Shown here piece by piece: positions 13,307-44,000 of a DNA stretch of 55,983 bases. Each line of letters starts with the position of its first letter. Within the stretch, counting starts at the first letter, position 1. The stretch comes from an uncultured Bacteroidales bacterium. GTDB taxonomy: Bacteria; Bacteroidota; Bacteroidia; Bacteroidales; WCHB1-69. Location: assembly GCA_946409645.1 (NCBI GenBank), contig CAMJXE010000011.1, positions 1 to 55,983 on the forward strand, written 5' to 3'. Position numbers and translations under genes: made by a program. The notes under the pieces are model-generated. The model was given only the letters and a program-made list of their open reading frames with translations. It made no database searches and had not been told where the DNA came from.

Positions 13307-16300
13307 TCATTGTTTCACAAACGGTTTGGTTACACAACCGCGGTCCGTGGCAATGCGCACGAAATACATGCCTGCGGAGAGGGACGAGACGTTGATTCGG
13401 ATTGGTAGAGACGTGCCATGGCGCGTCTCTACAACGGCATGGACCGTCTTCCCGTAAACATCCACGACCTCGATTTCCCCGCCCAATTGTACATTGTCCA
13501 TTGTACATTCCACATTGATATAGTCCATCGTGGGATTCGGGTAAATCTTGATATAGCGGTCATATTCCACAATACCAATCGAGTCATTCGAGGTGGTCTT
13601 GCCGATCACCACCGGGGTCCAGTCGCTGCTGACAATGCCGCACACCGACTGCACTTGTATCTGGTACTCGGTGTTCGGTTGCAGGTCGGCGATGACGTAG
13701 GCGGGCGTATTGGAGACACCCGAGCTCATCACACCGGTGGCAATGGAACGGTACTGGATGTTCCACTCCTCCGCGTCGCCGGTCTCCGTCCACGCGATGG
13801 AGAGCGTGTTGTCCGAGGAGTCGGTCACGTGCAGGTCGGTGGGGGCGGGACAAGGGCCCTGCTCCGTCGTGAAGGTGATTTCGGCACCGTAATAAACGGC
13901 GGTGTCCGAGGCCGCGAACGCCCGGAAAACATACGCGGTGGAGTGCTGCAAACCTGACGCTGTGAAAACCATCGGGGAGGCGGTCAAGTTCGCAGACTGA
14001 TAAACGGTGGAACCCGACATACGCCACTCGAACCCCTGGTTGACGATGGGACGGTTGCCCGGGTCGGCGATGTGGCCGTGGAGAATGGCTGTGTTTGTCC
14101 CCACCTGCGACACCGAATCTGTGACCACCACCGGCTCTATCACCGGACAGTCGGCGGTGAAGGCATACAGGGTGCTGTCTCCGCCAAACAAGGTCGAAAA
14201 CAGACTGGAAATCTGATACATGGTGCTCCCTTCGGGACTCAAAAAGATGACCCCACATTCGTTGTACATATTGCCGGAGCTCCAAACCAGACGAACGTCT
14301 GTGCCATGACAGAGCGACAACGAAACCGTGTCGTAAGACGTCACATGTTGAACGGGATGGCTTACCGCCGCCGTATCCATAATCTTCACCCCATTCTGAT
14401 ACACGTAGAGCCGTCCTCCGCTCCAGCCATCACCCCATGAGTCGGTCAGGACAAGCGTGTATTCGCACTGGTCAGCCGCCTCGCAGGAGGGGGTGATGAA
14501 CGTCAGCATTTTGTAGGTGGAAGTCTCCCCGTCGCCGCAGTCGGCCTGCACACGCACCATATATTCTGTCTCAGGGAGCAGGCTTGTCAACGTGTGGGTG
14601 GTGCTGTTCACCGCATTCGAAATCCACGTGGCGTCACTGCCCACCTTGTAGTCGATGTTCCAGGAGGTCTCTGCATTGCCAGCTGTCCATGCGACCGTCG
14701 CTGACGTGGGATGCAGCTCCGTGACCGCCAGATTGTCCACGGGGTCGCAGTTGTTGGTGTGGACAAAGACGTTGTAGATGACGGCCCCCGGCTGGGCTCC
14801 CCAATCCGAATCATTCGTCCACACAAACACTACCTTAGCCGTCGAGTTGGAATCCGGGTTCTGATTCGGGTTCGCCATGGTGGCGGAAACATGCACAACA
14901 TTGCCGTTAGTGAGGTTGAACAGGTGGGGATACTCTTGATAGGAGGTAAACGGCTTGTAATCAATAAAATTGTAGTCATACGAATAACCGTTGGGCCAAT
15001 GATACCACATGTAGCCCGGATTAGTGCCATGGGTGAACATAGGCTCATATTCCGCCGACTCTGGTGCAAAGAAGAGTTTGAGGTAGTCAAGATGGTCCTC
15101 CCCTCCGATCTTGATGTCGAAGTCGATGGTGATTTCCGGGTTGGTACCGACACGGAACAGCTTTTCAGCGCTTACCGTGGACCAACTCCAGTTCCATCCA
15201 TACCCGGGCGTGGTTCCATTGTTCGTGATAAACAGAGCATATTCGGCGTCGGCGGCCGTATTCACCTGTCCAATCATCCAATAGTTGTTGCAGCTGCCGT
15301 TGTTGAGTTTCCACCCCCGGTCTTCCGTAGGCGAGAAATCCGTGTAATAGGGTATCTCCTCGATGCCCAACGGAGTGGAAAAAATCACTGACTTATATGC
15401 CGACTCCGAGCAGACGGACGAGACCTGCACTTGGTAGTTCTTGCTGTCCTGAAGATTATCGAAAATGTAGTAGGTTTCATACGTGGTGTCGTAGAAAATC
15501 CAAGTGGTGTCGGGCAGATGGCGATAGCGAATGACATAGCCGTTCTGCGAAAAGCCCACCCAGGTGATGGTGGCGGAGTCGGCCGTGATGCCGTCGGCCT
15601 CCACATAATAGACCGGCGGGCATTCCGGGCCGCTGAAGAGCGCGACATTGTCGATGAGGACGCTGCTTCCGCCGGGCGGCACATTAAAGCTGAAGAAGGC
15701 GAGCTGGATGAGTCCCGATTGCTGCGGCAACGGCAGCGAATCTTTGTGCGCCGAGGCGATAGTCTGCGTGAACAACGCCCACGGATGCCAGCCGTCCAAA
15801 GCGCTGGTACGGTAGTAAATACCTAAGTAATCGGCGGTTACGGACGCACTTTGGTAATGGTCAAGGGAGAGGTATGGACGGGTGAGTCCTGAAATGTCGA
15901 ACACCGGCGATACCAGCGCACAGGAGTCCGCACCCGGATACACATGCGTATGCGTGAACTTCCCGCTGACCACGTAAAACCACTCATGCCACGGGTTTAT
16001 CGACTTTTTCCAACATTCCGGATCTACCGAGAAGGTCTCCAAGAAAGGTGCCGCATCGGTCACGTTAACGACATCGCAGCCCGACATGAAACTGATGGAT
16101 TGCCACTCTGCCGTGTCGGCCTCGCAGAGCATGGCCACGCGGAGGTCGTAGGGTGTCTGGGAGAGCAACCCCGTCAGCACCGTGTCCGTGCCTGCAACCA
16201 CCATGTTGACGACCCCCGGATCCGTCCAGGCCATGGTCTGCGGCTTGTATTGCAAAAGGTAGGAGGCCGTGGAGGAATACGAGTCCCATTCCACCAACGC

Positions 16301-18520
16301 CGTGTCTAAAAAAGTGGTGGGAATATTGAGGTCATATACTGTATAACAACTTGGTTGCCAAAGATGTACATTTGAGATGATAGCCCCGGGTTGAACGCCG
16401 GTGGAGATGGAGTTTCTCCAGCAGAATACCAACTTGGCAGCCCCCGAAGGGTTCACGTTCGGCAACTCCATATTCACATGGAGAATGTTTCCGTTGGTGA
16501 GATTCAGCTTATAGTTGTAGGTCGGGCTGCCTGTCTGTCCAACATAGTCGGCAAAGTCCAAGGCTCCGTCCGTGTAGGTCAGTGAGATGTATTGCGGCGT
16601 AGAGACAGAGCCCGGAAATTCTAAACTGTCGGGCACCCAGAAGACCTTAAGGTAGTTGTTGGTGGACTCGCCGCCCACCTGCACATCGAACTCCAGATAG
16701 ACCGAAGGCCCTTCGTCCATGTTGAAGGTCTTGTAGGCGCAGACCGTGGAGTAGGAGTTGCTGCTGTAGCCAGCCGTCACGCCGTCCTGGGTGACAAACA
16801 GCGCGTTGTTCCAGTTGCCAGTCCCAGGCAACCCCATCATCCAGTAACTGGCGCAGGTGCTGTTGTCCAACGCCCACTTCCGGTCGGAAGTCGGCGAGAA
16901 ATCGGTGGCGTAGGGAAGGTTCACCGGCAGGAGCGGGGTGGTGAACGTTCCCTGTATGTAATACGCTTCCGTGGTGTCGCAAAGGGTGGCGACCTCCACG
17001 ATATAAGAGGTCAGCGACTCCAGACCAGACAAGGTCGCTTGCTCTGTTATCACCCCGCCGTATAGGGTCCATGCCGTGTCGGAAGCTTTCTTGTAGCGCA
17101 CATCGTAGCTGTAGCCGGGTAAGCCGATCCAAGAGAGGAGCACGTCACCGTTGGCGTCCGTACCCGCACTTACCACCTCCGAGACCACCGGACAGGAAGG
17201 TCCGTCATAGACACTGATGTTGTCGAACTGGGCACGGGTGTTGTAGGCACTGCCCACTCCTTCGAAAGCAATCTGGAGTGTGGGGGAGTTGGACGGCAGC
17301 GGCAATGAATCCGTCACCCAATTCGAGGTGGGTGTCCCGTAAGTTCCCAACTTGTGCCAAGAATCCTGCTCGTCATCACGGTAATAGACAGACACACTTT
17401 TCCGGTTGCCCTGGAACTCAGGCTGATAGTGGGAGAACCGCAGGTAAGGGTGCTGCAACCCGGAGGCGTCAATCACCGGCGAGACAGCCAAAATCGGGTT
17501 GTACTGGCTATATGCCGATGTGTATATGTAGCCGCTTTGGTTGTAGGTAAAGAAGTTGTTGTCCCACGACCAGCAGTTGGCGTCCGTGGTGAATGTCTCC
17601 ACGAATGGTGTAGGATAGGTCATGCACGGTGTGACGAAATGGTTCGGCTCCGACAAGGCGGAGGCTTGGCCGTTGCAGATCCGGGCCATCCAAGCCACGT
17701 AGGCGGTGTTCGGCATCATCCCCGTGACCGCGTAGGAGCTCCCCGTGACCGTGTCATAGACATTGTCGGAATAGGTCCCGGACTCGGGCCGATAGACCAC
17801 CAAGAAAGTGTCCGTGGGCGAGCCCTGCCATTGAAAGGTCACCGCCGATGTGCCAAACGAGATAGTGAAAAACGGCGCTACGCACACCGTAGGATAGATG
17901 GAAATGTTATCCACCGCCGCCGGCACCTGCAACGACTGTGAGGCGTTGTACCCCCAAGTGTAGAACTGCAGCGTCTTCACTCCGGAGACATAGCCCAAGT
18001 TCACGTGCCCGTGCCGCCACGAGTTGTCATACAGGGCATAGTCCAGATGCTCGTTGGCATACGCGGGAGCGCCTTCGGGCATCATGTCGGAAGTGTCGCG
18101 CAGGAAGACTTTCAGACCGCCGCTCTGGTAGAAGGTGGGCGTGGTCCCCGACGCCTTCCAGTCGAGCTCTAAGTCGTAGATTCCTCCATCGCTCCCGAAG
18201 TCGATGACACGTTCGGCGAACAAATGGCAGCTCTCCGCCATGGCCGAGTAGTTCCCGTTTTCGTCATGGCTGACATAGAGCGCATAGTCGTCTGCGAGCC
18301 CTGTCACCGACGTGCCCGTTCCGATGACGAAGTGGTTCAGAAAGTAGATGTAAGGGGAGGTTGGATAGCGGGAGAGAATCCAGTGGGCATTCTCGCTTTG
18401 GTTACTGAAGTCGCAGGTGTACGGCACCGTGGCCGGAATCTGCTGCAGACTGTCTATCTGTGCCTGCACCGCTCCGCAGAGCAGCAATAAGGTAATGATG
18501 CTGTAATGTTTTTTTTTCAT
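13307..18520 (-). CDS. Giant T9SS-exported adhesin, copy 1 (cleaved-adhesin/FN3 modules)
   Basis: 1737 aa. An N-terminal signal peptide (cleavage near VQAQ) is followed by repeated jelly-roll modules like the cleaved-adhesin/choice-of-anchor-J domains of Porphyromonas hemagglutinins (LRFSHYQ... with QFDNISVYDGPSCP), alternating with fibronectin-III-like units. Residues near 1370-1450 contain a TDSWGDGWSGG module. A last FN3 domain (CPAPTDLHVTDSS...) and a type A sorting domain (IYPNPT near 1658 through SLSAGMYFVRI to KPFVKQ) end the protein, marking it as type IX secretion cargo anchored or released at the surface. Residues 1697-1706 are encoded by a palindromic repeat. Ligand unknown; host or fibre adhesion is inferred. 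Confidence 0.87.
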   Translation of the reverse strand: MKKKHYSIITLLLLCGAVQAQIDSLQQIPATVPYTCDFSNQSENAHWILSRYPTSPYIYFLNHFVIGTGTSVTGLADDYALYVSHDENGNYSAMAESCHLFAERVIDFGSDGGIYDLELDWKASGTTPTFYQSGGLKVFLRDTSDMMPEGAPAYANEHLDYALYDNSWRHGHVNLGYVSGVKTLQFYTWGYNASQSLQVPAAVDNISIYPTVCVAPFFTISFGTSAVTFQWQGSPTDTFLVVYRPESGTYSDNVYDTVTGSSYAVTGMMPNTAYVAWMARICNGQASALSEPNHFVTPCMTYPTPFVETFTTDANCWSWDNNFFTYNQSGYIYTSAYSQYNPILAVSPVIDASGLQHPYLRFSHYQPEFQGNRKSVSVYYRDDEQDSWHKLGTYGTPTSNWVTDSLPLPSNSPTLQIAFEGVGSAYNTRAQFDNISVYDGPSCPVVSEVVSAGTDANGDVLLSWIGLPGYSYDVRYKKASDTAWTLYGGVITEQATLSGLESLTSYIVEVATLCDTTEAYYIQGTFTTPLLPVNLPYATDFSPTSDRKWALDNSTCASYWMMGLPGTGNWNNALFVTQDGVTAGYSSNSYSTVCAYKTFNMDEGPSVYLEFDVQVGGESTNNYLKVFWVPDSLEFPGSVSTPQYISLTYTDGALDFADYVGQTGSPTYNYKLNLTNGNILHVNMELPNVNPSGAAKLVFCWRNSISTGVQPGAIISNVHLWQPSCYTVYDLNIPTTFLDTALVEWDSYSSTASYLLQYKPQTMAWTDPGVVNMVVAGTDTVLTGLLSQTPYDLRVAMLCEADTAEWQSISFMSGCDVVNVTDAAPFLETFSVDPECWKKSINPWHEWFYVVSGKFTHTHVYPGADSCALVSPVFDISGLTRPYLSLDHYQSASVTADYLGIYYRTSALDGWHPWALFTQTIASAHKDSLPLPQQSGLIQLAFFSFNVPPGGSSVLIDNVALFSGPECPPVYYVEADGITADSATITWVGFSQNGYVIRYRHLPDTTWIFYDTTYETYYIFDNLQDSKNYQVQVSSVCSESAYKSVIFSTPLGIEEIPYYTDFSPTEDRGWKLNNGSCNNYWMIGQVNTAADAEYALFITNNGTTPGYGWNWSWSTVSAEKLFRVGTNPEITIDFDIKIGGEDHLDYLKLFFAPESAEYEPMFTHGTNPGYMWYHWPNGYSYDYNFIDYKPFTSYQEYPHLFNLTNGNVVHVSATMANPNQNPDSNSTAKVVFVWTNDSDWGAQPGAVIYNVFVHTNNCDPVDNLAVTELHPTSATVAWTAGNAETSWNIDYKVGSDATWISNAVNSTTHTLTSLLPETEYMVRVQADCGDGETSTYKMLTFITPSCEAADQCEYTLVLTDSWGDGWSGGRLYVYQNGVKIMDTAAVSHPVQHVTSYDTVSLSLCHGTDVRLVWSSGNMYNECGVIFLSPEGSTMYQISSLFSTLFGGDSTLYAFTADCPVIEPVVVTDSVSQVGTNTAILHGHIADPGNRPIVNQGFEWRMSGSTVYQSANLTASPMVFTASGLQHSTAYVFRAFAASDTAVYYGAEITFTTEQGPCPAPTDLHVTDSSDNTLSIAWTETGDAEEWNIQYRSIATGVMSSGVSNTPAYVIADLQPNTEYQIQVQSVCGIVSSDWTPVVIGKTTSNDSIGIVEYDRYIKIYPNPTMDYINVECTMDNVQLGGEIEVVDVYGKTVHAVVETRHGTSLPIRINVSSLSAGMYFVRIATDRGCVTKPFVKQ
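13405..13432. repeat. Palindromic repeat, family A, inside the adhesin sorting domain
   Basis: 28 bp: GTAGAGACG / CGTCTCTAC arms around a GCCATGGC centre, one mispair. Read in frame on the minus strand it encodes VETRHGTSL. It is the exact reverse complement of the element at 43019-43046. Confidence 0.88.
13494..13855. repeat. Near-identical 362-bp block, copy 1
   Basis: Matches 19188-19549 at a constant offset of 5694 bp with a single difference (13527 A versus 19221 C, Met versus Arg after NPT). It encodes the last FN3 domain and the start of the sorting domain. Flanking coding sequence is far more diverged. Confidence 0.93.
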
Positions 18521-18547
18521 ATTGCTGTTGTTTTAAGTTTGCATAAT

Positions 18548-18563
18548 CCCCCCCCAAAAAAAA
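18548..18563 (-). repeat. C8A8 homopolymer run in the adhesin leader or promoter
   Basis: Eight C followed by eight A (T8G8 in the gene's direction), ending 28 bp before the adhesin ATG. Such runs change length by slippage and could alter promoter spacing or the mRNA leader. Confidence 0.7.
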
Positions 18564-18819
18564 CATGAATGATGTTTTGTGCATTATGGATTTCATTTTT
18601 AACAATCGTTTTTCACATAACGAAATTCGATTTCAACTGTTACAAACTTTTTTAATGAATTATCTATCAAGGAGGCCTCTATTTATTTCTAACTGACCAC
18701 CAATTGTTTATGCCCAAAATCATTCGTAAAACAACATCTACCCCCCTCCTGGCGAAGTGTCAACAAGTGTCATTGTAGGCTCGTCGTTGCATCGTCACAG
18801 TCTCTTAGATGCACTCTCT

Positions 18820-18897
18820 GATATTCGATTGATATTCGATTCTTTTTCGATTGATATTCGATTGTTATTCGATTTTTTTCGAATAACAATCGAATAT
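18820..18897. repeat. ATTCGATT direct repeats and a 19-bp perfect hairpin
   Basis: GATATTCGATT occurs at 18820-18830, 18831-18841 and 18853-18863, with GTTATTCGATT at 18864-18874. Positions 18854-18872 and 18879-18897 are perfect 19-bp inverted repeats with a loop of six T. It may end transcription of adhesin copy 2 or be a site for a binding protein. Confidence 0.8.
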
Positions 18898-19003
18898 GAA
18901 TTGAGAATCATTCGAAGATAAATCGAGTATCCTTGCTCTCATCATTGACGCAACAAGCTTACTAAGACGAATGATAAACAATAGAGGTTGCCTCTTGCCA
19001 TTG

Positions 19004-22000
19004 TTAATTCCGTTTCACGAACGGTTTGGTAACCATTCCGTTGTCCATCACCACGCGCACGAAATACATGCCTGCGGCCAGACCCGAGACGTTAATGCGG
19101 GTCTGCAGAGGCGAATCATTATTCGCCCCTACGGCGACCACTTTCCCATAAACGTCCACCACCTCCACGGACATCCCCTCCTGTTTGTTGTCCATTGTAC
19201 ATTCCACATTGATATAGTCCCTCGTGGGATTCGGGTAAATCTTGATATAGCGGTCATATTCCACAATACCAATCGAGTCATTCGAGGTGGTCTTGCCGAT
19301 CACCACCGGGGTCCAGTCGCTGCTGACAATGCCGCACACCGACTGCACTTGTATCTGGTACTCGGTGTTCGGTTGCAGGTCGGCGATGACGTAGGCGGGC
19401 GTATTGGAGACACCCGAGCTCATCACACCGGTGGCAATGGAACGGTACTGGATGTTCCACTCCTCCGCGTCGCCGGTCTCCGTCCACGCGATGGAGAGCG
19501 TGTTGTCCGAGGAGTCGGTCACGTGCAGGTCGGTGGGGGCGGGACAAGGCGGGACTTCCGGCTCCAATGTGGTGAAAGCGATATCGTTTCCATACACGGT
19601 ATCAAAAGGAGTTGTCGCAAAAGCACGGTAATAATAGGTCGTGGCTGGAGAGAGTCCAGTGACCGGGGCCGCCATGGTGTCTCCGGACGCGCTTATGAGC
19701 GTGTAGCTACCATCGTAGAATTCGAAACCTTGCTCCAAAATGGGCAGATCCCCGTAGTCCGCGATGTGACCGTGCAACACCGCCTCGGTCTGCGTGATGC
19801 CGCTGGCACTGTCGGTGACAACCACAGGCAACGCCAACTGGCAATCTGCCGTGAAGGTGAACATCGTGGTATCCCCTACTATAAAGGGCAGACCAATCTG
19901 TTGGTACAGTTGCATCCCTTCCGGACTCAATAGCGTGATACCACATTCATTAGTGTAACTGCCGCCATCCCAAGAAAGCTCCACAAAAGCGTTGTGGCAA
20001 AGGTCCACCAATACCGTGTCATACGTTGTCACGTGGGTCAAATTGTGGTTCACGGCTGCCAAATTAGCAACCACAATGCCATCGGAAATCACTTTCATCA
20101 CGCCTCCGCTCCATCCGTCACCGTAACTATCGGACAAGACAAACATGTACGGACACATATAATCACAAAGCGTGGTGGTGAACATCGCATCCGCGGGTAT
20201 CGATTGGTCATTGCCGCAATCGGCCATCACTCGAACATCATAGCTGGTGGTAGGTGTCAGCCCCGTCAGCGTGTAAGCCGGCGTCCCCGACACAGGGACT
20301 TGCGTCCAGGTTGTGGCGGAGACCTCTTTGTATTCCAGAATCCAGTCCGTTTCGCCGCCGTTGCCGGGGCTCCAGGAGATGTCGGCAGTGGTGGAGAGCA
20401 CATTGGAGGCGGTGAGCTGGCTCACGGGCGCGCAGGAGTTGTTCCGCACCGAGATGTTCGTGATGACCGCGCCAGGCTGGTCACCCCATAGATGGTCGTT
20501 TCTCCATAGGAAAACCACCTTTGCCTGGGAAAGATCCACCATGTTGGCGACCGGGTTGGGCATCACCGCCGCGATATGCACCATGCCCGTGCCCGTAGAA
20601 AGCGCGAAGGTGTAAGGGGCCGAATGCGACTGGTCGGTGCTGAGGCTGAAAAATGGCGTGAAGTTGAAGGCATTCGTGCTGTAACTCGTCCCGGCGTATG
20701 ACGGGAAACTTGTGGTTGAGGTCGAATATTCCGTATTGGCCGGTGCCAGAAACAGCTTGATGAAATCATAACGGGCCTCGCCGCCGACACGTATGTCGAA
20801 TTCCACCACAACGGAATCCGCATTGCCCATCTCGAAGAGTTTTTCCGCCGTCACTACCGAAATATCCGTGTTGCTATATCCCGGCGTGCTGCCGTCGTGG
20901 GTGACAAACAGCGCGTTCACGTGGTTGACGGCGTCCACCTCGCCCATCGTCCAATAGTTGGCGCAGTCGCCGTTGTTGAGCAACCAACCATGGTCGGAAG
21001 TGGGCGCGAAGTCCGTGAAATAGGGCAGGTCCTCGGCGATGAGCGGCGTAGAGAGCTGCGCAGAGAGCCAGTTCGGCTCGTCACAGTCGCCGGACACTTG
21101 CACAATATAGGTGGTAGATCCCTGTAAATTGTTGATTATCAAAAATGTGTCCGTAGTCGTGACATAGTTCCACACCGTATCGGAGAGATCGTGGTAGCGC
21201 ACCACGTAGCCATTTTCGCTATGCCCGACCCAGGAGATGGCAGCCGCGGTCCCCGTCACATCCACCACCGATACGCTGGTCAGCGGCAGGCATGAAGGCC
21301 CGTTATAGACGGAGACATCATCAAGATAGATGGCACCTCCGCCGTCGTTTTGGACGGCTAAGAAGGCGAACTGGATGTAATTGAGCGAATCAGGCAAGGG
21401 AATGGAGTCAGTTTTCAACGCGGGAATCTCCATATCATACAAGACAAGCGTTTGCCACGGACTCAACGAACTGCTCCGGTAATCCACTTTCAGATAGTCA
21501 AAATGGTGGAAATTGATGTCTCCCTGCTGCTGATGGGAGAATTTCAGATAAGGATGGCTCACGGCGGAAATATCCATCATCGGGGAATAGAGGGGACAGG
21601 TGTCGCTCAAGCCCGCCTGATAGTGGTGCTGGTGATACATGGCCCCGTTATAGTTGAGATAACTCCACGAATGATCCGGGTTCACCGCCATAATCCAGCA
21701 ATCTGGTGCTGTGGAGAAATCTTGCACGTAGGGGGTGCTGTCTGTCACCACGATAGCGCAGGCCGTGTTGAAGTCGGTGTAACGCCAATTTCCAATGCCC
21801 AAGATGTTGCCACAGTTCACCCGAACCCGCACGTCATAAACGGTGTCTGCCAATAATCCGTTCAGAATCAAAAAGTTCGTGTCTATCGTTTGGGTTGTCA
21901 CAGAAGCCGAAGTCCAATCATCGCCTTGTAGTTTGTACTCCACCACGAAGTCTTCAGCCACAGTTGGCGGTGTCCAAGTCACGGTGGCGTGGCTTCCCAC

Positions 22001-24274
22001 AATGTCCACGACCTGCAAACCGGTGACCACGTCACAGTCGTTCTGCCACACATGCACGTTGGTGATGACGGGGCCGGGCTGATTATCCGAATACATGCCG
22101 TAGTGGCTGGTTGTGCTGTGGTCATTGGTCCAGACGAACACCAGCTGCACCTCCCCGTTCAGGTTCGGGTTCGGCATTTCCATATTGACATGCAATATGT
22201 TACCTTGTGTAAGGTTCAGTTTGTAATTGCCACCCGAATAGCCCGTCTGGCTCAAAAACTCGTGGAAATTGGCCGCGTAAACCTGATAGTCAAAAGCGGA
22301 AAAACTCGTGCTGTTTTCTGACGCAGCGTACACCACATCCGCCGGTGCGAGAAACATCTTCAGATAATCCATGTTGCTGTTACCGCCGCAAAGCACGTCA
22401 AACTCGACATTCACCGTGGATATATCACTGACATTGAAGCGTTTGGAAGCACTCACAACCGTATAATAGTTGTCCAACCCGTAACCCGCCGTAGCACCGT
22501 CCTGCGTGACGAACAGTGCGTTGGCCATCGACGAGGCACCATCATCCTGCATCACGGGCGATCCTATCGTCCAGTGGTTGAGACAAGTGCCGTTATCTAA
22601 CTGCCAGTCTCGGTCGGCCGTGTTGGAAAAGTCTGTGAAATAAGGCAATAGCGTGGCGACCACCTGCGAGGTGAACGCGCAGGGAACCCACACCAACGAA
22701 TCGCAAGAGGACGAGACTTCCACCTCGTAGTTCGTGAGTGACGCAAGAGGCTCAATGATTGCATAGCCGCCGAGGTCGTTTGTATAGACCCACTCCGCCG
22801 TGTCAGACGTCCTGTAACGCACATTACATCCTGCGGGATTGTTGCACACCCAGTGGATGAAGGCCGTGTCACCGCTCTGCCCCGCAAACGTCACATCCGA
22901 AACCACCTCACAGTCAGGGCCATCATAGATGTAAATGTCGTCCAAAGAGATACGGGAAAGCTGTTGGTTGCCATGCTGGATGGAGAAAAATCCGAGCTGC
23001 AGTGTCGCGGAATGCGACGGAATCGCCACCGAATCAGTCTTCCATTCGCTGGTTCCCGTCGGAGTGATATACGTCCCCATATAATGCCACTCATCTTCTT
23101 CATATTCACGATAATACAGGTCCAGACTCTTACGGTCTCCATCGTATTCGCTCTGGATGCGGGAAAATTTGAGGTAAGGGTTGACCAGACCTGAGACATC
23201 AATTACGGGAGTGATGGCGCGCGCGGTGTCGAAATAGCCGAAATAGTCCGGGCTGCTGGTATAGGACACATGATTTGTTGTATATATGTATTCAAACAAC
23301 TCACTGAATGTCGGATCAAGTGTCCAACAATGCTGCGGGGCAGAAAAATGTTCCTCGAACGGGGCCACGTAGGTGCCGCAACCTGTCGTGAAATGCGTGC
23401 CTAAGTACATCGCAGAAGTGTCTGAGCCGCAAATCTTCGCCATCCAAGCGATATACTCCGTATTGGGCAACAAACCGCTAATGGTATCCGTATTACCGAC
23501 AATTTCCTCATATTCAATATCTTGATCTGTTCCGAAAACGGGACGCCAAACAATCAGGAACGTGTCGGTATCACTACCCTGCCAGTCAAAAACCGCACGT
23601 GTGCCGACCGTCGTGACCGTGAACTGCGGCGCCTCGCACGTGGCGGGTATGATGGCGATGTTGTCAATGGCCGCCGGCACGAGCCGCGCATTCGCGTTGA
23701 GATAGCCCCACGTGTAGAACTGCAATGTTTTCAATCCCGAAACATTCTGCAGAGGAATGCGGATGTGCCGCCATACGGTGTCGTTCACCGCCAACTCCAG
23801 GTATTCCTCCGCATAGTCCGGCGTTTCCTGCGGCATCAGGTCGGCGGTGTCGCGCAGGAAGACCTTCAACCCGCCAATGACATTCGAGCCGTTCTGGTTG
23901 CCCGACGCCTTCCAATCCAGCTCCAGCACCCAGTTCTGCGGCACATTCCCGAAATCGAGAATACGTTCGGCAAAGAGCCGGCAGGACTCGCTATTGGCGC
24001 CGTAACTTTCCAGTCCTGCCGTGTCGCCGCTGACATACAGTGACTTGTCCGCCCCGCCCGCCACGGACGTGCCCGTGCCGATGACGAAACGGTTCGAGGG
24101 TTCGGACATGTAGCAGCTTGAGCGCGTCAGGATCCAACGCTGGTTCTCGCTTTGGCTGCTGAAATCGCAGCTGTAGGGCAGCGTCGCCGGGATCTGCTGC
24201 AGACTGTCGATTTGCGCCTGCGCCCATACGCAGAGCAGCAACATCGTGATGAGGGTGTAAAATTTATTTTTCAT
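19004..24274 (-). CDS. Giant T9SS-exported adhesin, copy 2
   Basis: 1756 aa, tandem paralog of the gene at 13307. The start is set at the ATG at 24274 (MKNKFYTLITMLLL, cleavage near WAQAQ); the upstream in-frame ATG adds 20 non-signal residues. The order is the same: IDSLQQIP...CDFS start, repeated choice-of-anchor-J/cleaved-adhesin-like modules (for example KFSRIQSEYDGDRKSLDLYY and YIYDGPDCE), FN3-like units, a LSDSYGDGWSGG module near 1380, one extra FN3-like unit, then the last FN3 domain shared almost identically with copy 1 and a sorting domain (IYPNPT to KPFVKRN). Residues 1715-1724 (VGANNDSPLQ region) come from a family B palindrome at the equivalent loop. Likely a surface adhesin; the ligand is unknown. 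Confidence 0.87.
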   Translation of the reverse strand: MKNKFYTLITMLLLCVWAQAQIDSLQQIPATLPYSCDFSSQSENQRWILTRSSCYMSEPSNRFVIGTGTSVAGGADKSLYVSGDTAGLESYGANSESCRLFAERILDFGNVPQNWVLELDWKASGNQNGSNVIGGLKVFLRDTADLMPQETPDYAEEYLELAVNDTVWRHIRIPLQNVSGLKTLQFYTWGYLNANARLVPAAIDNIAIIPATCEAPQFTVTTVGTRAVFDWQGSDTDTFLIVWRPVFGTDQDIEYEEIVGNTDTISGLLPNTEYIAWMAKICGSDTSAMYLGTHFTTGCGTYVAPFEEHFSAPQHCWTLDPTFSELFEYIYTTNHVSYTSSPDYFGYFDTARAITPVIDVSGLVNPYLKFSRIQSEYDGDRKSLDLYYREYEEDEWHYMGTYITPTGTSEWKTDSVAIPSHSATLQLGFFSIQHGNQQLSRISLDDIYIYDGPDCEVVSDVTFAGQSGDTAFIHWVCNNPAGCNVRYRTSDTAEWVYTNDLGGYAIIEPLASLTNYEVEVSSSCDSLVWVPCAFTSQVVATLLPYFTDFSNTADRDWQLDNGTCLNHWTIGSPVMQDDGASSMANALFVTQDGATAGYGLDNYYTVVSASKRFNVSDISTVNVEFDVLCGGNSNMDYLKMFLAPADVVYAASENSTSFSAFDYQVYAANFHEFLSQTGYSGGNYKLNLTQGNILHVNMEMPNPNLNGEVQLVFVWTNDHSTTSHYGMYSDNQPGPVITNVHVWQNDCDVVTGLQVVDIVGSHATVTWTPPTVAEDFVVEYKLQGDDWTSASVTTQTIDTNFLILNGLLADTVYDVRVRVNCGNILGIGNWRYTDFNTACAIVVTDSTPYVQDFSTAPDCWIMAVNPDHSWSYLNYNGAMYHQHHYQAGLSDTCPLYSPMMDISAVSHPYLKFSHQQQGDINFHHFDYLKVDYRSSSLSPWQTLVLYDMEIPALKTDSIPLPDSLNYIQFAFLAVQNDGGGAIYLDDVSVYNGPSCLPLTSVSVVDVTGTAAAISWVGHSENGYVVRYHDLSDTVWNYVTTTDTFLIINNLQGSTTYIVQVSGDCDEPNWLSAQLSTPLIAEDLPYFTDFAPTSDHGWLLNNGDCANYWTMGEVDAVNHVNALFVTHDGSTPGYSNTDISVVTAEKLFEMGNADSVVVEFDIRVGGEARYDFIKLFLAPANTEYSTSTTSFPSYAGTSYSTNAFNFTPFFSLSTDQSHSAPYTFALSTGTGMVHIAAVMPNPVANMVDLSQAKVVFLWRNDHLWGDQPGAVITNISVRNNSCAPVSQLTASNVLSTTADISWSPGNGGETDWILEYKEVSATTWTQVPVSGTPAYTLTGLTPTTSYDVRVMADCGNDQSIPADAMFTTTLCDYMCPYMFVLSDSYGDGWSGGVMKVISDGIVVANLAAVNHNLTHVTTYDTVLVDLCHNAFVELSWDGGSYTNECGITLLSPEGMQLYQQIGLPFIVGDTTMFTFTADCQLALPVVVTDSASGITQTEAVLHGHIADYGDLPILEQGFEFYDGSYTLISASGDTMAAPVTGLSPATTYYYRAFATTPFDTVYGNDIAFTTLEPEVPPCPAPTDLHVTDSSDNTLSIAWTETGDAEEWNIQYRSIATGVMSSGVSNTPAYVIADLQPNTEYQIQVQSVCGIVSSDWTPVVIGKTTSNDSIGIVEYDRYIKIYPNPTRDYINVECTMDNKQEGMSVEVVDVYGKVVAVGANNDSPLQTRINVSGLAAGMYFVRVVMDNGMVTKPFVKRN
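19105..19132. repeat. Palindromic repeat, family B, inside the adhesin sorting domain
   Basis: 28 bp: GCAGAGGCGAAT / ATTCGCCCCTAC around CATT, two mismatched pairs. Same family as 10397-10428. It is translated in frame at the loop where copy 1 carries a family A element. Confidence 0.82.
19188..19549. repeat. Near-identical 362-bp block, copy 2
   Basis: Partner of 13494-13855 with one mismatch. The boundaries are abrupt: on one side the palindrome-bearing loop, on the other the linker before CPAPTDLH. Confidence 0.93.
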
Positions 24275-24345
24275 ATGTTTAGGATTTAGGTGTTTTCGGA
24301 ACTGTGTTGTGGCCTTGTGATTATCTCTTTTCACAAATGGGTTTC

Positions 24346-27420: not shown

Positions 27421-27448
27421 GTAGAGACGCGATTAATCGCGTCTCTAC
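27421..27448. repeat. Palindromic repeat, family A, perfect copy
   Basis: Perfect 28-bp palindrome with 14-bp arms beginning GTAGAGACGCGATT (30 bp counting a flanking T/A pair), in the gap before umuD, 22 bp before its ATG. No LexA-type box was recognised in the gap. Confidence 0.92.
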
Positions 27449-31181: not shown

Positions 31182-32135
31182 ATGGACATATCCGTAATAG
31201 TACCCCTATTAAACGAAGCAGAATCGCTTCCTGAACTGACCGCTTGGATTGAGCGTGTCATGTCCGAACACAAGTTCTCCTACGAGGTCATCATGGTCGA
31301 TGACGGCTCCACCGACGAATCATGGTCCGTGATTCAAGAGTTGCACGCCAATAACCCCGCCATCAAAGGAATCAAGTTCCGCCGCAACTATGGCAAATCG
31401 GCAGCGCTGAACACCGCTTTCGAGGCTTGCCAGGGCGATGTGGTCATCACTATGGACGCAGACCTGCAGGACAGTCCCGACGAGATTCCCGAACTCTTCC
31501 GCATGATCAAGGAAGACGGATACGACCTCGTATCAGGATGGAAAAAAGTGCGTTACGATTCAAAACTTGCCAAGAACATCCCGTCGAAGTTCTTCAACTG
31601 GACTACCCGCCGTATGTCGGACATACAGCTCCACGACTTCAACTGCGGTCTTAAGGCATATAAGAAAGACGTGGTGAAATCCATCGAGGTGTATAGCGAA
31701 ATGCACCGTTACATACCTGTCATCGCCAAATGGGCAGGATTCACCAAGATTGGAGAAAAGGTGGTCATCCACCAAAAACGCAAGCACGGTGTCTCCAAAT
31801 TCGGATGGAACCGCTTCATTAACGGCTACTTGGACCTGCTGACCGTCAGTTTCATGTCGAAATTCGGCAAGAAACCGATGCACTTCTTCGGTTCGTTAGG
31901 TTCGTTGTCATTTCTGATTGGTATCATTATCACCATCGTGCTCATTGCGCAGAAACTTTACAGGCTTTCTCACCAAGTAGTTTTCCGCCAAGTCACAGAT
32001 CAACCGCTATTTTATCTGGCTCTGTTAGCGATGGTCTTCGGATCGATGCTGTTCCTTGCCGGTTACCTCGCAGAGTTGGTAGTCCGCAACGGTTCCGACC
32101 GCAACAAATACCTGATTTCTGATAGAATCGAGTAA
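31182..32135 (+). CDS. Glycosyltransferase family 2, polyprenyl-phosphate type
   Basis: 317 aa. GT-A domain: MDISVIVPLLNEAESL start, MVDDGSTDES nucleotide site, TMDADLQDSP with the DxD metal site, and the NCGLKAYK acceptor motif. Two C-terminal membrane segments (near 235-255 and 270-295) match the DPM1/GtrB-like group, which loads a sugar onto undecaprenyl phosphate on the cytoplasmic face. It follows DUF4199 through a repeat-filled gap and may share its transcript. Donor sugar not predictable. Confidence 0.88.
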   Translation: MDISVIVPLLNEAESLPELTAWIERVMSEHKFSYEVIMVDDGSTDESWSVIQELHANNPAIKGIKFRRNYGKSAALNTAFEACQGDVVITMDADLQDSPDEIPELFRMIKEDGYDLVSGWKKVRYDSKLAKNIPSKFFNWTTRRMSDIQLHDFNCGLKAYKKDVVKSIEVYSEMHRYIPVIAKWAGFTKIGEKVVIHQKRKHGVSKFGWNRFINGYLDLLTVSFMSKFGKKPMHFFGSLGSLSFLIGIIITIVLIAQKLYRLSHQVVFRQVTDQPLFYLALLAMVFGSMLFLAGYLAELVVRNGSDRNKYLISDRIE

Positions 32136-32144: not shown

Positions 32145-32172
32145 GTAGAGACGCGGTTGACTGCGTCTCTAC
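32145..32172. repeat. Palindromic repeat, family A
   Basis: GTAGAGACGC / GCGTCTCTAC arms around an imperfect 8-bp centre, between the GT2 stop and the FISUMP gene. Confidence 0.88.
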
Positions 32173-37623: not shown

Positions 37624-37650
37624 GTATTCTTTAACAGACCGAAAAAATTG

Positions 37651-37658: not shown

Positions 37659-37676
37659 CGGCCTAAAATTTGACCT

Positions 37677-38612
37677 ATGGCATATACGATTGACTTGACG
37701 CAAATAACGCAGTTCGACCACGTAGAGTTCGTGGCCAAACAGGTGGTGGAAGGCTTTATCACAGGCATTCACAAGAGCCCTATGCACGGCTTCTCTGTAG
37801 AGTTTGCCGAACACCGGCCTTACAACACTGGCGAACCCATCCGGCACATTGACTGGAAATTGTACGCCCGCACCGACAAGCTGTTCGTCAAACAATATGA
37901 GGAGGAGACCAACCTGCGCTGCCATCTAGTCATCGACAATTCGTCGTCCATGTACTTCCCCAAACGGCAGAAGTACACCCTCGCACAACCGAACAAGATT
38001 TTCTTCGCTGTATATGCCGCCGCTGTTTTGATGCAAGTTTTCAAAAGTCAGCGCGATGCCGTCGGGCTGAGCCTCTTTTCTGACAAGTTAGAGTTGCACA
38101 CGCACGCACGGGGCGGAGATGCGCATCACAAGATGATCTACCGAGAATTGGAGAAAGTTCTACAACCTATTGGCGACGACGTGCAACGACAGTCTATGGT
38201 CACCGACACGCTGCACCAGATTGCCGAACAGATTCATCGCCGTTCATTGGTCATCATTTTCAGCGACATGCTGGAATCGAGCAAAAACCTGGACGAGTTG
38301 CTGCTCGCGCTGGGGCATCTGCGCCACAACAAACACGAGGTCGTTCTCTTCCACACCTTCGACAAACAGTTGGAATACGACTTCTCTTTCGACAACCGAC
38401 TCTATCGATTTGTGGATATGGAAACTGGGAAAGAGGTGAAAGTACATGCCAACAATATTCGCGAATACTACCAACAGACCGTACGCGAATACTTCCAAGA
38501 AATCAAAGTCAAATGCGGCCAATACCAGATTGATGTCATTCCGGCCGACATCACGCAAGGTTTCGAACAGATACTACTACCCTATTTACTCAAACGATCG
38601 CAAATGTATTAG
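37677..38612 (+). CDS. DUF58 domain protein (von Willebrand A-like)
   Basis: 311 aa, soluble. FVAKQVVEGFITGIHKSPMHG, then GEPIRHIDWKLYART (the DUF58 signature) and LVIDNSSSMYF, the DxSxS metal-site motif of a VWA fold. Usually the partner of a MoxR AAA+ ATPase in chaperone-like complexes that act on envelope or metal proteins. No MoxR gene is adjacent in this window, which is unusual. Own promoter; radC follows after a palindrome. Confidence 0.9.
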   Translation: MAYTIDLTQITQFDHVEFVAKQVVEGFITGIHKSPMHGFSVEFAEHRPYNTGEPIRHIDWKLYARTDKLFVKQYEEETNLRCHLVIDNSSSMYFPKRQKYTLAQPNKIFFAVYAAAVLMQVFKSQRDAVGLSLFSDKLELHTHARGGDAHHKMIYRELEKVLQPIGDDVQRQSMVTDTLHQIAEQIHRRSLVIIFSDMLESSKNLDELLLALGHLRHNKHEVVLFHTFDKQLEYDFSFDNRLYRFVDMETGKEVKVHANNIREYYQQTVREYFQEIKVKCGQYQIDVIPADITQGFEQILLPYLLKRSQMY

Positions 38613-38639
38613 TAGAGACGGGTCGCGACCCGTCTTTAC
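38612..38639. repeat. Palindromic repeat, family A
   Basis: 28 bp, arms GTAGAGACGGGTCG / CGACCCGTCTTTAC with one mismatch, directly after the DUF58 stop. Confidence 0.85.
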
Positions 38640-38668
38640 CAACCACAGAAAACGTATTAACCTAAACT

Positions 38669-39382
38669 ATGAACCTACAAAACAAAGACTACGAAAACCG
38701 AAAACTGACCATCAAAGAGTGGAGCGCTCAAGACCGGCCAAGAGAAAAATACGCCAAGAACGGCGCTGTGGCATTGTCCAACGCGGAACTCATTGCCATA
38801 TTACTGCGTACTGGAAGCAACGCTGAATCCGCCGTGGATTTAGCCAAGAGGCTGCTTGCCTCTTCGGAAAATAGTCTTAACAACCTGTCCGATATGTCGT
38901 TGCGAGAAATCTCACAGATCAAGGGCATTGGACAGGCGAAAGCCATTGCCCTGCTCACCGCCTTTGAACTCGGCAAGCGCATCCGCGCGGAGAAGGTGGA
39001 GGAGAGTCTGCATATCCTAAACTCGCGAGATGTCGTAAACCTGATGCAAGACAAAATAGCCTATCTCGACCATGAAGAATTCTGGGCAATATACCTCAAC
39101 CAAGCCAACCGCATCCTGCTAAGTTGCCAAATCAGCAAAGGAGGCATCAGCACCACAGGGGTGGACACGCGAATCGTGATGCAAGAAGCAGTAGTGAACA
39201 AAGCCACGCAAATCATCCTATGCCATAACCATCCGTCCGGATCGGTGCGCCCCAGCCGCGCCGACATCCAGCTGACAGAAAAACTTCACCACGCCGCCAA
39301 ACTGATGGATTTGGTCTTAGTCGATCACATCATCATCCACAAAGACCGGTACTACAGTTTTGTGGAAGAGGGAAGGTTGTGA
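38669..39382 (+). CDS. radC: RadC family JAB-domain protein
   Basis: 237 aa. N-terminal helix-hairpin-helix region (IKGIGQAKAIALL near 86-98) and a C-terminal JAB/MPN metalloprotease-like domain with H186-N187-H188-PSG and a following Asp (SRADIQLTEKL). GGISTTGVDTR is typical. Family length is normal. Despite the name, a direct role in repair is doubtful; the biochemical function is unsettled. It converges on the unknown secreted protein at 39404. Confidence 0.95.
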   Translation: MNLQNKDYENRKLTIKEWSAQDRPREKYAKNGAVALSNAELIAILLRTGSNAESAVDLAKRLLASSENSLNNLSDMSLREISQIKGIGQAKAIALLTAFELGKRIRAEKVEESLHILNSRDVVNLMQDKIAYLDHEEFWAIYLNQANRILLSCQISKGGISTTGVDTRIVMQEAVVNKATQIILCHNHPSGSVRPSRADIQLTEKLHHAAKLMDLVLVDHIIIHKDRYYSFVEEGRL

Positions 39383-39403
39383 GAAACAGCAGAGCGACGC
39401 TTT

Positions 39404-40924
39404 TCACTCTTTCGTTTTGTTCATCGGACAGGCAAGTTTGGATATCAGGTTAGATTTTTTGCCGGTTCGGCAGAGAATAAAACCGTCGTCTTCAGTGAAC
39501 AAGGGGCACAAAATGTAGGATTTGTGGGCGGTGTAGTCCATCAGCAGCTCTGGGATGGAGATTTCCTGATTTCGGTTGATGGTACAATGGGCGGCGCAAA
39601 CACCGTTGTACCTCACGGCTGTGGTGAATCCGGCATCCACGAAACAGTTCAGGCCACTTTTCCCTTTGTAATTGTCAATATTGTCAGCAAAGATGATGTG
39701 GATAACATCGTTATGCATAATGGGAAAATAGGAGAACATTCTGTCCCGCAATCCTTTCGGCGAGCCGGAAGTGAAGGTGCTTGTCTGTGTCTTTTTGATC
39801 ATCTTGAAGTTGGTGATATCACCGTTAGGATTCATGAAATGCACCAGCACATTGCCCCCAATGGTGAATTCGATGGTGGCGCGCTGAACACTTTGCATGT
39901 CTCCGAGGAGAGCCAAAGTGCCGTCGGAAAACTCGTAAAATCCCATGGGATAAGCATGAAAATCTTTCCCTTCAACCTTCGCACCCACATGATTATAGGC
40001 ATAATACGCATCTGGGAAATCTTGGTGGCTGATATTGGTCGTAGAGAACTTCTTGGCGTCGAACTTGAAAACGTAGCAGCCGCTCTCTTTTTTTTCTGGG
40101 TCTGAGGAGTAGTATCCACTTACAGCGATGTTGCCGTCTTTCGTGAACAGGAGGCTTGCATTTTGCAAAGATCCGAACTCCGGTTGTTCTTCCACGTGGT
40201 TCGTCTCCCCATACTGACCATATTGGTACAAATGAAGTGTCTCGTTCGCCCTCGATTTGTCCTTGTCATCCTTCTTTGTAAAAGAGAGAATGGTGGTATA
40301 TACGTTTGCATCATTCTGGATGGCAAAATTGAAAATTTGCAACGTATTGTTCGTAAACTCCAAGTCCATCGAACTTTGCCATAGCAGTCCATTCTCGTCG
40401 AAAGCCATAATCAAAGAGCCCTTCAGACTTGCGGATTTCAAGGAGTTTTGAGTCAAACAGAGCAAAACGGCAGCTTTGGAGTTGTCGGGAGAGGTGGACG
40501 AGAAGGTTCTGATGTCGTAAGCCCTTTCCAAAGGGACGGAGCCGACAAGTTCCGGATCCCAGCTGAAGTCATCCCCATCCTTTGGAACGGAGTTCAAGTA
40601 GATGCCGTATGATTTCTCCTTGTAATTAAAAAAGTTATACACACAATAAAGCGAGTTTGTACTTTCGTAACATGCCATCAGAACGTAGTCGGAGGGGTGG
40701 TTCATTTTCTTTGTTTGGCACTCGCTTCCATCTTTCGGCATACGGATACACTTGTCCGTATTGCCGTAACGAGGACTATAGTACAGGTATCGGTTGCCGT
40801 CGGCACTGTTAATACTGGTATGCGGAACTCCCGCCTCCAGCAGATCTACAATCGCGGTGTTGTTTGTTTGGGCAATCCCGAATGCCCCCCAAAACACGAT
40901 TACTGCTAATAATAACTTCTTCAT
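39404..40924 (-). CDS. Secreted protein of unknown function, propeller-like
   Basis: 505 aa from the ATG at 40924 (MKKLLLAVIVFWGAFGIAQ, signal peptide); the longer reading to 40981 lacks a signal and is rejected. The mature part has repeated strand-rich segments (SLLFTKDGNIAVSGYYSSD, YEFSDGTLALLGDMQ, SGLNCFVDAGF) that suggest a beta-propeller, and no sorting domain. No family recognised. It lies downstream of the macroglobulin gene on the same strand (116-bp gap), so the two may share a transcript. Confidence 0.6.
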   Translation of the reverse strand: MKKLLLAVIVFWGAFGIAQTNNTAIVDLLEAGVPHTSINSADGNRYLYYSPRYGNTDKCIRMPKDGSECQTKKMNHPSDYVLMACYESTNSLYCVYNFFNYKEKSYGIYLNSVPKDGDDFSWDPELVGSVPLERAYDIRTFSSTSPDNSKAAVLLCLTQNSLKSASLKGSLIMAFDENGLLWQSSMDLEFTNNTLQIFNFAIQNDANVYTTILSFTKKDDKDKSRANETLHLYQYGQYGETNHVEEQPEFGSLQNASLLFTKDGNIAVSGYYSSDPEKKESGCYVFKFDAKKFSTTNISHQDFPDAYYAYNHVGAKVEGKDFHAYPMGFYEFSDGTLALLGDMQSVQRATIEFTIGGNVLVHFMNPNGDITNFKMIKKTQTSTFTSGSPKGLRDRMFSYFPIMHNDVIHIIFADNIDNYKGKSGLNCFVDAGFTTAVRYNGVCAAHCTINRNQEISIPELLMDYTAHKSYILCPLFTEDDGFILCRTGKKSNLISKLACPMNKTKE

Positions 40925-41040
40925 TTTGTCACAATTTTCAATTTTACTACTGTTGCGATAAATGCCATCGAAAATCTGCATGAGTGCTCGCTGTTTTCAA
41001 AGGATTCTTTGACATACTGAAAGTGTTCGCAAACAAATTG

Positions 41041-44000
41041 TTACCGCACCTGCACCCTTACCCCCGCTGAATGCGACTGGAACTCCGGCGCGTACATGCA
41101 CTCGATATGCGTGATGCCGTTGCTGAAGTCGCCGGACTGGGTGGCGAAGAGGGTGTATTCGAAAACGTATTTGCCTTTCGGCATCCAGTCGATGAAGAAA
41201 TGGGTAGCGGCATCCTTGGTCGATTCGTAGTACCAGAGACCGTCCTGGTATTTGTATTGCGAGAAAACGTTGACTGGCTCGAAGGTGGCAGCCCGCATGT
41301 CCTTGAGGTGCACGAACTCCATGTCACGGTCTGCGGTGATGACCACCCGGACGCGCACCTTGTCGCCCTTTTGCAACAGATGATTGGTTGTGATGGTCTT
41401 CAGCACCTCGCCCTTGTCGGTGTTCTCCACCTTGAAGAGCTGTTTCTCGATGACGAGACTCTTGTCGTCACTGCGGGCGATCTTGTCCAAATTCTCGAAA
41501 TACTGCCAGTAGAGGCCGCCCCACGCAGGACCGTCCGTGCCCTTTTCGATGCGCACGTTGGCCTTGTCGGCGGTGATTTCCTCACCCGTCCAGACCTTCT
41601 TGAAGTAGCCGGCACCCGCCTCGGTCTGCACGGTTTCGTCCGGCAGGCGCACATTCCCCACGGTGACCGCCACGGTCTTGTCGTCGGCCACCAGCGTCTT
41701 GTTCAGCAGCAGCGAATAGACGGCCTCGGTGGTCGATTTGGTGGTGCCCCAATGCTGGGTCTGCTTCTGTTTGAGGAGCCACAACTGCATCTGTGCTAAC
41801 GTCTCCTCGTCCTCCGGTGTGATGGTGTAGAACGCCTCGATCAACATCGCCTGCCGTTCCACGGGCTGCTCATACCAGAACCAGCCGCCACCCTGCTTTT
41901 TCCAGAACATGCCCATCTCTTCACTATGCTGGGCCATGCTCTTAAGGTAGGCCACAATCTCCTTCGCCACTTTCTGGTCGCCGTTGCGCCAAGCGGTGAG
42001 CGCAATCATCGCTTGCGTATAGTAGAACTCTGATTTCCAACTGCTTAACAGCACCTTATAGCAGGTATCGTAGGCGACTTTGTGCTTTGCGGAGACCTTG
42101 TCTTTGTAGAAGCTGCGGGCGTAGAGGTAGTGCGTTTCATCAACGTAGGTGTAGTGGTATTTCTTGCGGTCGAGGTAGCGCTGGTACATCTGCGCGTCCA
42201 TGTAGGAGACGGCGTTGCGGAGGGTGCTGTTGGCCACGTCGGTACTGACACCGAGTGCTTTGAGGTGACCGAAGCCCGCCACGATGTGCCGCGTGATGAA
42301 GTCGCTGCTCTTGCCGCCGGAGAACCACGGCCAGCCGCCGTCTCCGTTCTGCGCCTGCTGCAGTTTCTTAAGCGTGGAAGCCTCCTCCTTGGCCATCCGC
42401 TTGAAGTCGAACATCGCGGCCAGCACCTGTTTGTTGGCCCCTTCGCGCTGCGCGTCGAGCACCCACGGGGTCTCCTCCAGTATCACCTGCTTGAGTTCCT
42501 GGTTCTTCTCCAAGGCGGAGCAGAAGGCATCGGGACTCTCCACCTGCCAACGATTGAAGACCTCCTCGATGACGGGGTTGGCCTTCAGGATGTGGGTGGC
42601 GAGGGCGTTGGCGTAGTAGCGGCTGAAGCGCTGTTCGTTGCACTCGTGCGGGTATTCCATCATGTAGGGCATCGCCTGGATGGCGTACCACACGGGATTG
42701 GGGGTGCATTCCACCGTCAAACGGTAATGTTTGAGGGTTTTGCTGGCCGTAGCACCGAACGCATCACGTAATTTATTGAAAGTAAACGTCTTCGAGCCTT
42801 TGCCCGAGATGTAGAACGGCATCGTTTCGGTCACCATCATGCGGTTGGTGAGCACGGGGAGGGTCTTCTCCTCGCCGTCGCCGACCACCTCCTTCGGGTC
42901 AGTGTTATGCGCGACGATGCGGTAGGTGACGGCAGGCACGTCCGCGGGGACGACGATGCGGAAATGGATTTCGGAGGAGGTGCCGGCGGGAATCTCGTAT
43001 TGCCGGGTACCGTCCGTTGTAGAGACGCGCCATGGCACGTCTCTACGGTCCGAATCCGTAATGATCATCGAAACCGGTTGGTTGTTCACGGCGTTGAACA
43101 TCTGCAGCGTCACGTGTCCGCAAATGTTCCGGCCGCTCATATTCACCACCTTGGCGGAGAAATCCATGGTGTCGCCCTCGCGGAGGAAGCGCGGGGCGTT
43201 TGGTACGATCATCACGTCCTTGGCGGTCTGCACGAACTTCTCGAAACGGCCGGTCATCAGGGCTGGATTATGCGCCACACCTTGCATCTTCCACTTGGTG
43301 AGTGCGTCGGGCATGGTGAAGCTGATATAGACGTCGCCGCGTTCGTCGGTGCGCAGCTGCGGGTAGAAGAAGGCTGTTTCCGCAAAGTTGGTGCGGACCT
43401 GCTCGGCGGGAGATTCGGTTCCGCCGGCATCAGCATCTCCAGCAGCAGCTTTGGCGGCCATCGGCGCGGGAGCAGATTCTTCGTAAACCATGGCAACCTC
43501 TTCCACCTCCGCAAAATCCACAGCCGCAACGACATCTTGGCGGTTGCTGCGTGCAGAGAATGACTTGCCAAAGCCATAGTAGCGCGTGCATGCATTCGGG
43601 AAGAAGTCAAACCAGTTTTTAATCGGCGCAATAGAGTAGTACAAAAACAGGTTGCGATAATTGTATTGGCTGAAACTTCTCTCCCACGAAAGTGCACGGA
43701 AGTCGCCTCTGGCACCGTTCCATGGACTGTAGAAATTCATACTGTGGTAGTTATGGCCTCCCAAAGCATCCAACGCCATGTCGTACATCGAGCACAAGAG
43801 TTCTGCCGAGACGGGCTGCCCGGCTTTGTCGGTCAGACGAACCTGATACTCCTCCTGGCTGCCCGGCAGCGTCTTGTCACGGAAACGCAGAAACTCGAAT
43901 CGGATGTCTTTCGTATCATCAGTGACCGTGACAGACTGGGACATCTCTTCTTTCTTATTCTGGTGAATACTCAGCAGATGGACACTCAAGCCACCGATGT

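Follow-up and report, generated by a model that had tools for sequence, protein, structure and literature searches.

How does one short palindrome come to lie both between genes and, translated in frame, inside them? The question is raised by a 55,983-nucleotide contig of an uncultured Bacteroidales bacterium (assembly GCA_946409645.1, contig CAMJXE010000011.1; this whole stretch is called the window). It holds seven 28-nt palindromes, three of them translated in frame, as a sequence-only reading of the window had proposed; the exact palindrome of the first lies at 10399-10426, not at 10397. Our answer, to which we assign a probability of about 70%, is that the palindromes belong to a Bacteroidales repeat resembling repetitive extragenic palindromic (REP) sequences and probably mobile, whose intragenic copies are accommodated as exposed turns and whose type at a given site can be replaced.

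According to this model, the palindromes would be copies of a non-coding repeat, most of whose placed copies lie between genes. Intragenic copies would occur where the encoded 9-10 residues are able to make an exposed turn, in many cases taking over part of the native loop; one hairpin of the type IX sorting domain and one of a macroglobulin may be sites of this kind. A palindrome could later give way to one of another type at the same site: with arms and length in common, the two types would leave the frame intact, and only the ten inner bases, and with them the loop peptide, would change. We infer mobility, overwriting by recombination or re-insertion, and selection for tolerated turns from the patterns described below.

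The three translated palindromes of the window, all on the minus strand, lie in two adhesins (13405-13432 and 19105-19132) and in a macroglobulin (43019-43046). The remaining four have no strand assigned. Those at 10399-10426, of the GTAGGGGCG type, and at 27421-27448, with a CGATTAATCG core, are intergenic, and so is the copy with an imperfect core at 32145-32172, which starts 9 nt past the end of an open reading frame (ORF, 31182-32135). The palindrome at 38612-38639 has one arm mismatch and shares a single base with the ORF at 37677-38612, the first G of the palindrome also closing that ORF's stop codon.

These seven belong to a dispersed family. With GTAGRGRCG N4-24 CGYCYCTAC as search pattern and the same pattern reversed as control, the 3.09-Mb genome yields 79 copies and the control none, so that the over-representation expected by the earlier reading is present. 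It extends to relatives: 95 of 104 genomes of the family carry the palindrome, with 0 to 262 copies each (control 0 or 1). Among sampled Bacteroidota, 115 of 392 genomes contain the pattern; single matches in this wider sample mean little, because the control there gives 0 to 2. Querying with a 32-nt palindrome matched 32 plasmid records, from Parabacteroides, Persicobacter and several cyanobacteria. The small dispersed repeats of cyanobacteria are likewise very short dispersed repeats, and similar or identical palindromes occur on cyanobacterial plasmids.

In viral contigs, 109 stretches match a fixed-length palindrome pattern. Seven viral loci (L180, L181, L182, L195, L201, L235 and L250; L numbers denote loci throughout) have identically spaced palindromes beside phage structural-like genes, and several of these contigs are probably one and the same phage. 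A 1857-nt palindrome-bounded unit in viral contigs was considered as an autonomous element and rejected, its ORFs being, by eye only, phage-structural-like.

Fifty of the 79 genomic copies were placed, genes being called by simple codon usage and hosts named from reading frames and Pfam. Eleven lie wholly inside long ORFs, ten overlap a predicted ORF end and 29 are intergenic; intragenic copies are thus far fewer than expected from an assumed 85% coding share. The eleven are translated within an AcrB-type pump (two elements), thiamine pyrophosphokinase (two), a sigma-70-region protein (three) and, with one each, an HlyD-type adaptor, a sorting-domain protein, adhesin 1 and the macroglobulin. 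Secretion, which the three hosts in the window had seemed to share, holds for the adhesins and the macroglobulin and is not the common factor, since the hosts include pump, adaptor, sigma-factor and thiamine-pyrophosphokinase genes. Conserved genes are thus among the hosts. Outside Bacteroidales, intragenic copies were found in an annotated Planktothrix polyketide synthase and a Halotia peptide synthetase, one each; a Persicobacter Hsp70 gene was not counted, the element merely touching its stop end. On contig 24 of the genome (about 8932-9842, L032), four identical palindromes with the CGATTAATCG core stand within less than 1 kb between predicted genes.

Inside genes, one position recurs. Adhesin 1 (13307-18520, minus strand; fn3 and MAM domains by Pfam) carries a type IX sorting domain (Por_Secre_tail, PF18962) at 13325-13546, and its palindrome, with a CGCCATGGCA core, is translated as VETRHGTSL(P). 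Adhesin 2 (19004-24334, minus strand; fn3 domains by Pfam) has its sorting domain at 19025-19240, with a palindrome of the GTAGGGGCG/AATAATGATT type read as VGANNDSPL(Q); one arm of this copy is degenerate, which puts it outside the strict pattern. Both elements occupy one and the same hairpin loop of these paralogous domains. The adhesin-1 domain, modelled from three window sequences, is predicted to have seven strands (mean pLDDT 78.5), and the element would form residues 48-57, which take up the last part of strand 43-50 and the turn leading to strand 58-61. Only one fold match of this model falls below E 0.001, and it is the best: a type IX translocon to which the C-terminal domain (CTD) of a substrate is bound; the host of the two elements thus qualifies as a type IX sorting domain both by its PF18962 match and by its CTD-like fold.

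Sorting domains were then surveyed in the genome under study (G000) and two relatives (G019, G023; relatives are numbered likewise below), with 78, 63 and 80 PF18962 matches, respectively. Taking the best domain per locus from the loci of 188 of these 221 matches left 187 distinct domains (77, 55 and 55), in which both arms were scored against GTAGRGRCG with a cut-off of 16 of 18, one shuffle per domain serving as control. Palindromes were found in 22 domains at a score of at least 16 (8 in G000, 5 in G019, 9 in G023), and no shuffle exceeded 14. Without exception the 22 occupy the loop that follows DxxGKxV and precedes the next strand and the GxY motif, and all are read in frame 0. Strict copies alone exceed the expectation from length in each genome (4 against 0.45, 4 against 0.82 and 5 against 0.66). 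The GTAGAGACG arms leave two of the three reading frames open, the third running into TAG, as can be read from the sequence. The frame is forced in ten loops, those with the GTAGGGGCG/AATAAT type, because the other arm-open frame contains TAA; in the remaining 12, to judge from their sequences, it is not.

The earlier reading had each element add about 10 residues. Nine to ten are indeed encoded, and the net gain in sorting-domain loops is only about three: among the 177 of 187 domains that could be measured, median loop length is 26 residues with the element (n=22) and 23 without (n=155; p 5.8e-8). Likewise, among paralogues in G019, L366 and L370 lack the element and L386 contains it with both flanks kept and a net gain of 9 nt. 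Since filled loops are so little longer, the element mostly replaces native loop sequence.

The 22 elements start 3 to 9 codons past the conserved Gly and fall into ten core classes. One class stands out, the type coding for VGANNxSPL, which occupies 10 of the 22 loops; in G000 it accounts for 4 of 8 loops against 5 of 48 copies elsewhere (Fisher p 0.017), a comparison in which loops admit degenerate copies and the other places strict ones only. These figures bear on whether the palindromes are kept for a role in DNA or RNA, as terminator-like hairpins or binding sites, with translation incidental. The predicted hairpins are strong, at about -20 kcal/mol for three types, and the intergenic majority of placed copies would suit such a role. 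We nevertheless judge it very unlikely in view of the mid-gene copies, of the single loop and single frame in sorting domains, and of the over-representation of the VGANNxSPL type there.

Comparison of orthologous domains revealed differences of type at corresponding positions. Of 69 pairs, 59 are empty on both sides, four are filled on both, five on one, and one pairs an empty with a decayed loop. The types differ in three of the four both-filled pairs, L446 belonging to two of these three. In three of the five one-side-filled pairs, the seemingly empty partner carries another palindrome (L409 twice, L324 once). In L323 and L330, the flanks are nearly identical up to the element and the cores are different.

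Could the sorting-domain palindromes then be passengers, spread mainly by domain duplication or gene conversion after one or a few insertions? The uniform frame and loop of all 22 would follow directly, the paralogues L382, L386 and L424 share type and flanks, and the two adhesins have in common a near-identical tract upstream of their elements. Against this speak the variable element start, the ten core classes, the close paralogues in the same genome that are empty, and the filled orthologue pairs that differ in type, one domain counted twice among them. We regard passenger spread as possible and deserving of weight, at less than even odds. The tract in question, about 300 nt at 13442-13741 and 19136-19435 amid much lower identity, suggests recent gene conversion between the adhesin genes. 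It stops about 80 nt before the element, and a recombination boundary exactly at the element is not claimed.

The second recurrent host is a bacterial alpha-2-macroglobulin (41041-46962, minus strand; MG2, A2M and bMG10 by Pfam). Its palindrome at 43019-43046 is the exact reverse complement of that at 13405-13432 over 28 nt, with 5 further shared nt on one side, and is translated in a different frame as (R)RDVPWRVST, just as had been noticed from the letters. A structure model of the macroglobulin is weak (mean pLDDT 58); it would put the element between strands, and no other use was made of it. With a 285-residue query, macroglobulin matches were obtained in 35 of 40 genomes of the genus, and 30 returned loci were examined. 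The named loci closest to it come from rumen and gut Bacteroidales assemblies.

At this position (site 1), a clade of 17 orthologues (L040-L056) contains 11 intact palindromes, five decayed ones and one deletion. The intact ones are of four types: T1 in five (once with a substitution), T2 in four, T3 and T4 in one each. More distant macroglobulin loci (L057-L068) lack the element in 11 of 12 cases, so orthologues with and without the extra residues do exist, and the universal presence of these residues in distant orthologues, which would have refuted the earlier reading, is not observed; the twelfth, L058, has one in the other frame. A distant homologue, L069, bears a T1 element. In a tree of the protein with variable stretches removed, G023 (T2) is sister to G019 (T3) with support 97/95, and G039 (T4) groups with G021 and G020 (T1 and decayed T1) with support 91/93. 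Ten site states need 12 changes on this tree against a mean of 15.2 after shuffling; the states are therefore clustered and yet switching.

At a second macroglobulin position (site 2), several species lack an element and others carry one. Where the element is intact, it lengthens the allele by 21 or 24 nt, or by 33 nt relative to a shorter allele, L051. In L054, L055 and L056, site 2 has in-frame 21-nt tandem repeats (encoding DAMNRNS) whose copy number differs between species; these look like a decayed and expanded palindrome.

Type differences at a fixed position need not mean that cores are exchanged; new elements might instead insert again and again at the same hot spots, the earlier copy being lost. 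The element of L058 (G016) lies in the macroglobulin hairpin in the other frame, with no element in the neighbours of G016 in the tree, and in L409 and L421 of G019 a different palindrome, GTAGGGCTG...CAGCCCTAC, read VGLPHCDSPT, occupies the same sorting-domain loop; both are what fresh insertion would produce. It accounts poorly for L323 and L330, which share both flanks up to the element, and for G039, which retains the left flank of the T1 group. Fresh insertion as the general route is thus a tentative alternative, toward which we lean less than not.

If sites draw on a pool of repeats, their types should be related to what each genome contains. Four palindrome types were counted in 19 genomes. 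T3 reaches 73 copies in G019 against 0-10 in the other 18, and G019 carries T3 at both macroglobulin sites. Over the 11 intact alleles, the type at site 1 tracks the types common in its own genome (p 0.0012 with genomes permuted). The tracking does not reach the sorting-domain loops (see G023 below), among which the VGANNxSPL type is over-represented. Taken together, the types found in loops may reflect what a genome supplies, filtered by the protein.

The same observations weigh on another possibility, that the palindrome stays fixed at its site and the core drifts fast, kept palindromic by hairpin-templated (template-switch) correction with no exchange between sites. Among 82 non-redundant elements, 42 cores are perfect and 31 have one mismatch, and decayed and hybrid cores occur, as such drift predicts, although a hybrid core such as that at C26:14027 also fits the replacement of one type by another. 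However, identical discrete cores turn up at sites that are not related and in different genomes, and the type at the macroglobulin site follows genome abundance. The commonest core, found in 20 of the 82 elements, repeats one asymmetric mismatch every time, which points to copying from a source. We consider template-switch drift improbable. The base immediately outside these elements, read outward, is A at 55% of ends.

A stronger form of our reading is that the repeats are interchangeable loop cassettes: sequences of equal length from a pool that spans the genome would rewrite, in frame, the hairpin loops of sorting domains and of surface proteins, and the proteins of each species would thereby gain and swap loop peptides taken from its own stock of repeats. 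This we find rather doubtful.

Several facts weigh against the proposal of a mobile, replaceable repeat. The permuted genomes are related, and with four lineages, picked after the types were seen, p is 0.04. T2 makes up 61 of 147 copies across G023 and none of its nine sorting-domain loops (p 0.008). Some branches of the macroglobulin tree are weak, and in G011/G030 a longer flanking segment seems to have been transferred, instead of the core being exchanged. Clean comparisons of empty and filled alleles come from one macroglobulin site and one set of sorting-domain paralogues. At that macroglobulin site, site 2, the sole one with aligned empty and filled alleles (about 82-91% identical), the target-site duplication that the sequence-only reading had suggested looking for is absent. 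The sorting-domain survey covers three genomes only, including 110 of 143 matches in G019 and G023, and the coding status of host ORFs is a simple codon-usage call plus Pfam. No movement of palindromes has been observed, and a palindrome-flanked RAYT or transposase, likewise looked for at the earlier reading's suggestion, was not found among the Y1 loci examined (L016 and 30 loci of relatives).

The genome has a single Y1 match, an IS200-like transposase gene at L016 (contig 2, about 44.8-45.3 kb) with coding split between two frames and no palindrome in the locus. In relatives, two of 30 Y1 loci have a palindrome anywhere within 1.9-3.4 kb. The RAYT-type motif is YIxxNP; a motif scan of these 30 found YIxNQ in 12, near variants by eye in two and no readable motif in 16. 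An excerpted account of such proteins (PMC6006769) places subclass 1.2, with the motif YIKNQKEHH, in Cyanobacteria and Bacteroidetes; our comparison with this subclass is by motif alone. Genomes with a Y1 match hold more palindromes (median 20, n=80) than those without (median 4, n=24; p 5.6e-7); larger genomes, too, have more copies (correlation 0.56), and after correction for size a correlation of 0.29 is left (p 0.002). An HuH Y1 protein is on these grounds a weak candidate for the mobilising enzyme.

How do these palindromes relate to described repeats? Our comparison draws on excerpts of the published accounts (PMC3733652, PMC10969869, PMC3116915 and PMC8266576). Closest are the GTAG REPs of Di Nocera et al. 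2013 (PMC3733652), which are also dispersed 20-40 nt GTAG palindromes of high copy number, mostly intergenic with some translated; some of them supply a stop codon, and their sequence types vary in abundance between strains. Those authors proposed a possible place for intragenic GTAG REPs in flexible linkers or loops and reported different REPs near the same recB site in two Xanthomonas species. They differ in that their GTAG is an unpaired tag at one end, whereas here each element is 28 nt long with GTAG ends and, in the three types folded, GTAG pairs with CTAC; a RAYT gene flanked by the repeats is another of their traits that is missing from the loci examined here. Bacteroidetes are entered in that account under CGTC repeats, not GTAG, and its excerpts contain no fixed-loop pattern in a sorting domain.

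The sequence-only reading had drawn a parallel with Rickettsia palindromic elements (RPEs), which sit in frame within many unrelated genes (PMC10969869, PMC3733652). As a likeness in how the elements work this is fair; the GTAG REPs are the closer relatives in print, and RPEs are set apart by their description, about 150 bp as first reported or CGTC-ended (RPE-4, RPE-6), from 28-nt elements with GTAG ends. REPINs, too, are very short palindromic repeats and are regarded as mobile within genomes, but consist of paired REPs and are RAYT-linked (PMC3116915); for the present palindromes, no palindrome-flanked RAYT was found among the Y1 loci examined. Intragenic GTAG REPs are already known (PMC3733652); new with respect to print are the fully paired Bacteroidales palindromes, their recurrence at one place of the type IX sorting domain and the switching of types at fixed positions. 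Among the papers listed in a search of the open-licence literature, none connected palindromic repeats with type IX sorting domains, and a literature search by sequence letters gave nothing relevant by title among the matches listed.

Repeat DNA has here repeatedly turned into protein at defined structural positions in one genus, with empty, filled, decayed and switched alleles that can be compared. Whether REPs and RPEs inside genes are of consequence for proteins, a long-standing question, thereby becomes testable, and the sorting domain suits such tests, being short, much studied and represented tens of times in each genome.

Two further repeats in the window deserve mention. Between the adhesin genes, at 18820-18931, there is a 53-nt inverted repeat, 83% complementary, with TTCGATTGATA-like units. 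At 54014-55946, many diverged repeats around CTGCGACAGC stand mostly about 150-165 nt, or multiples of this, apart, in a region with minus-strand ORFs.

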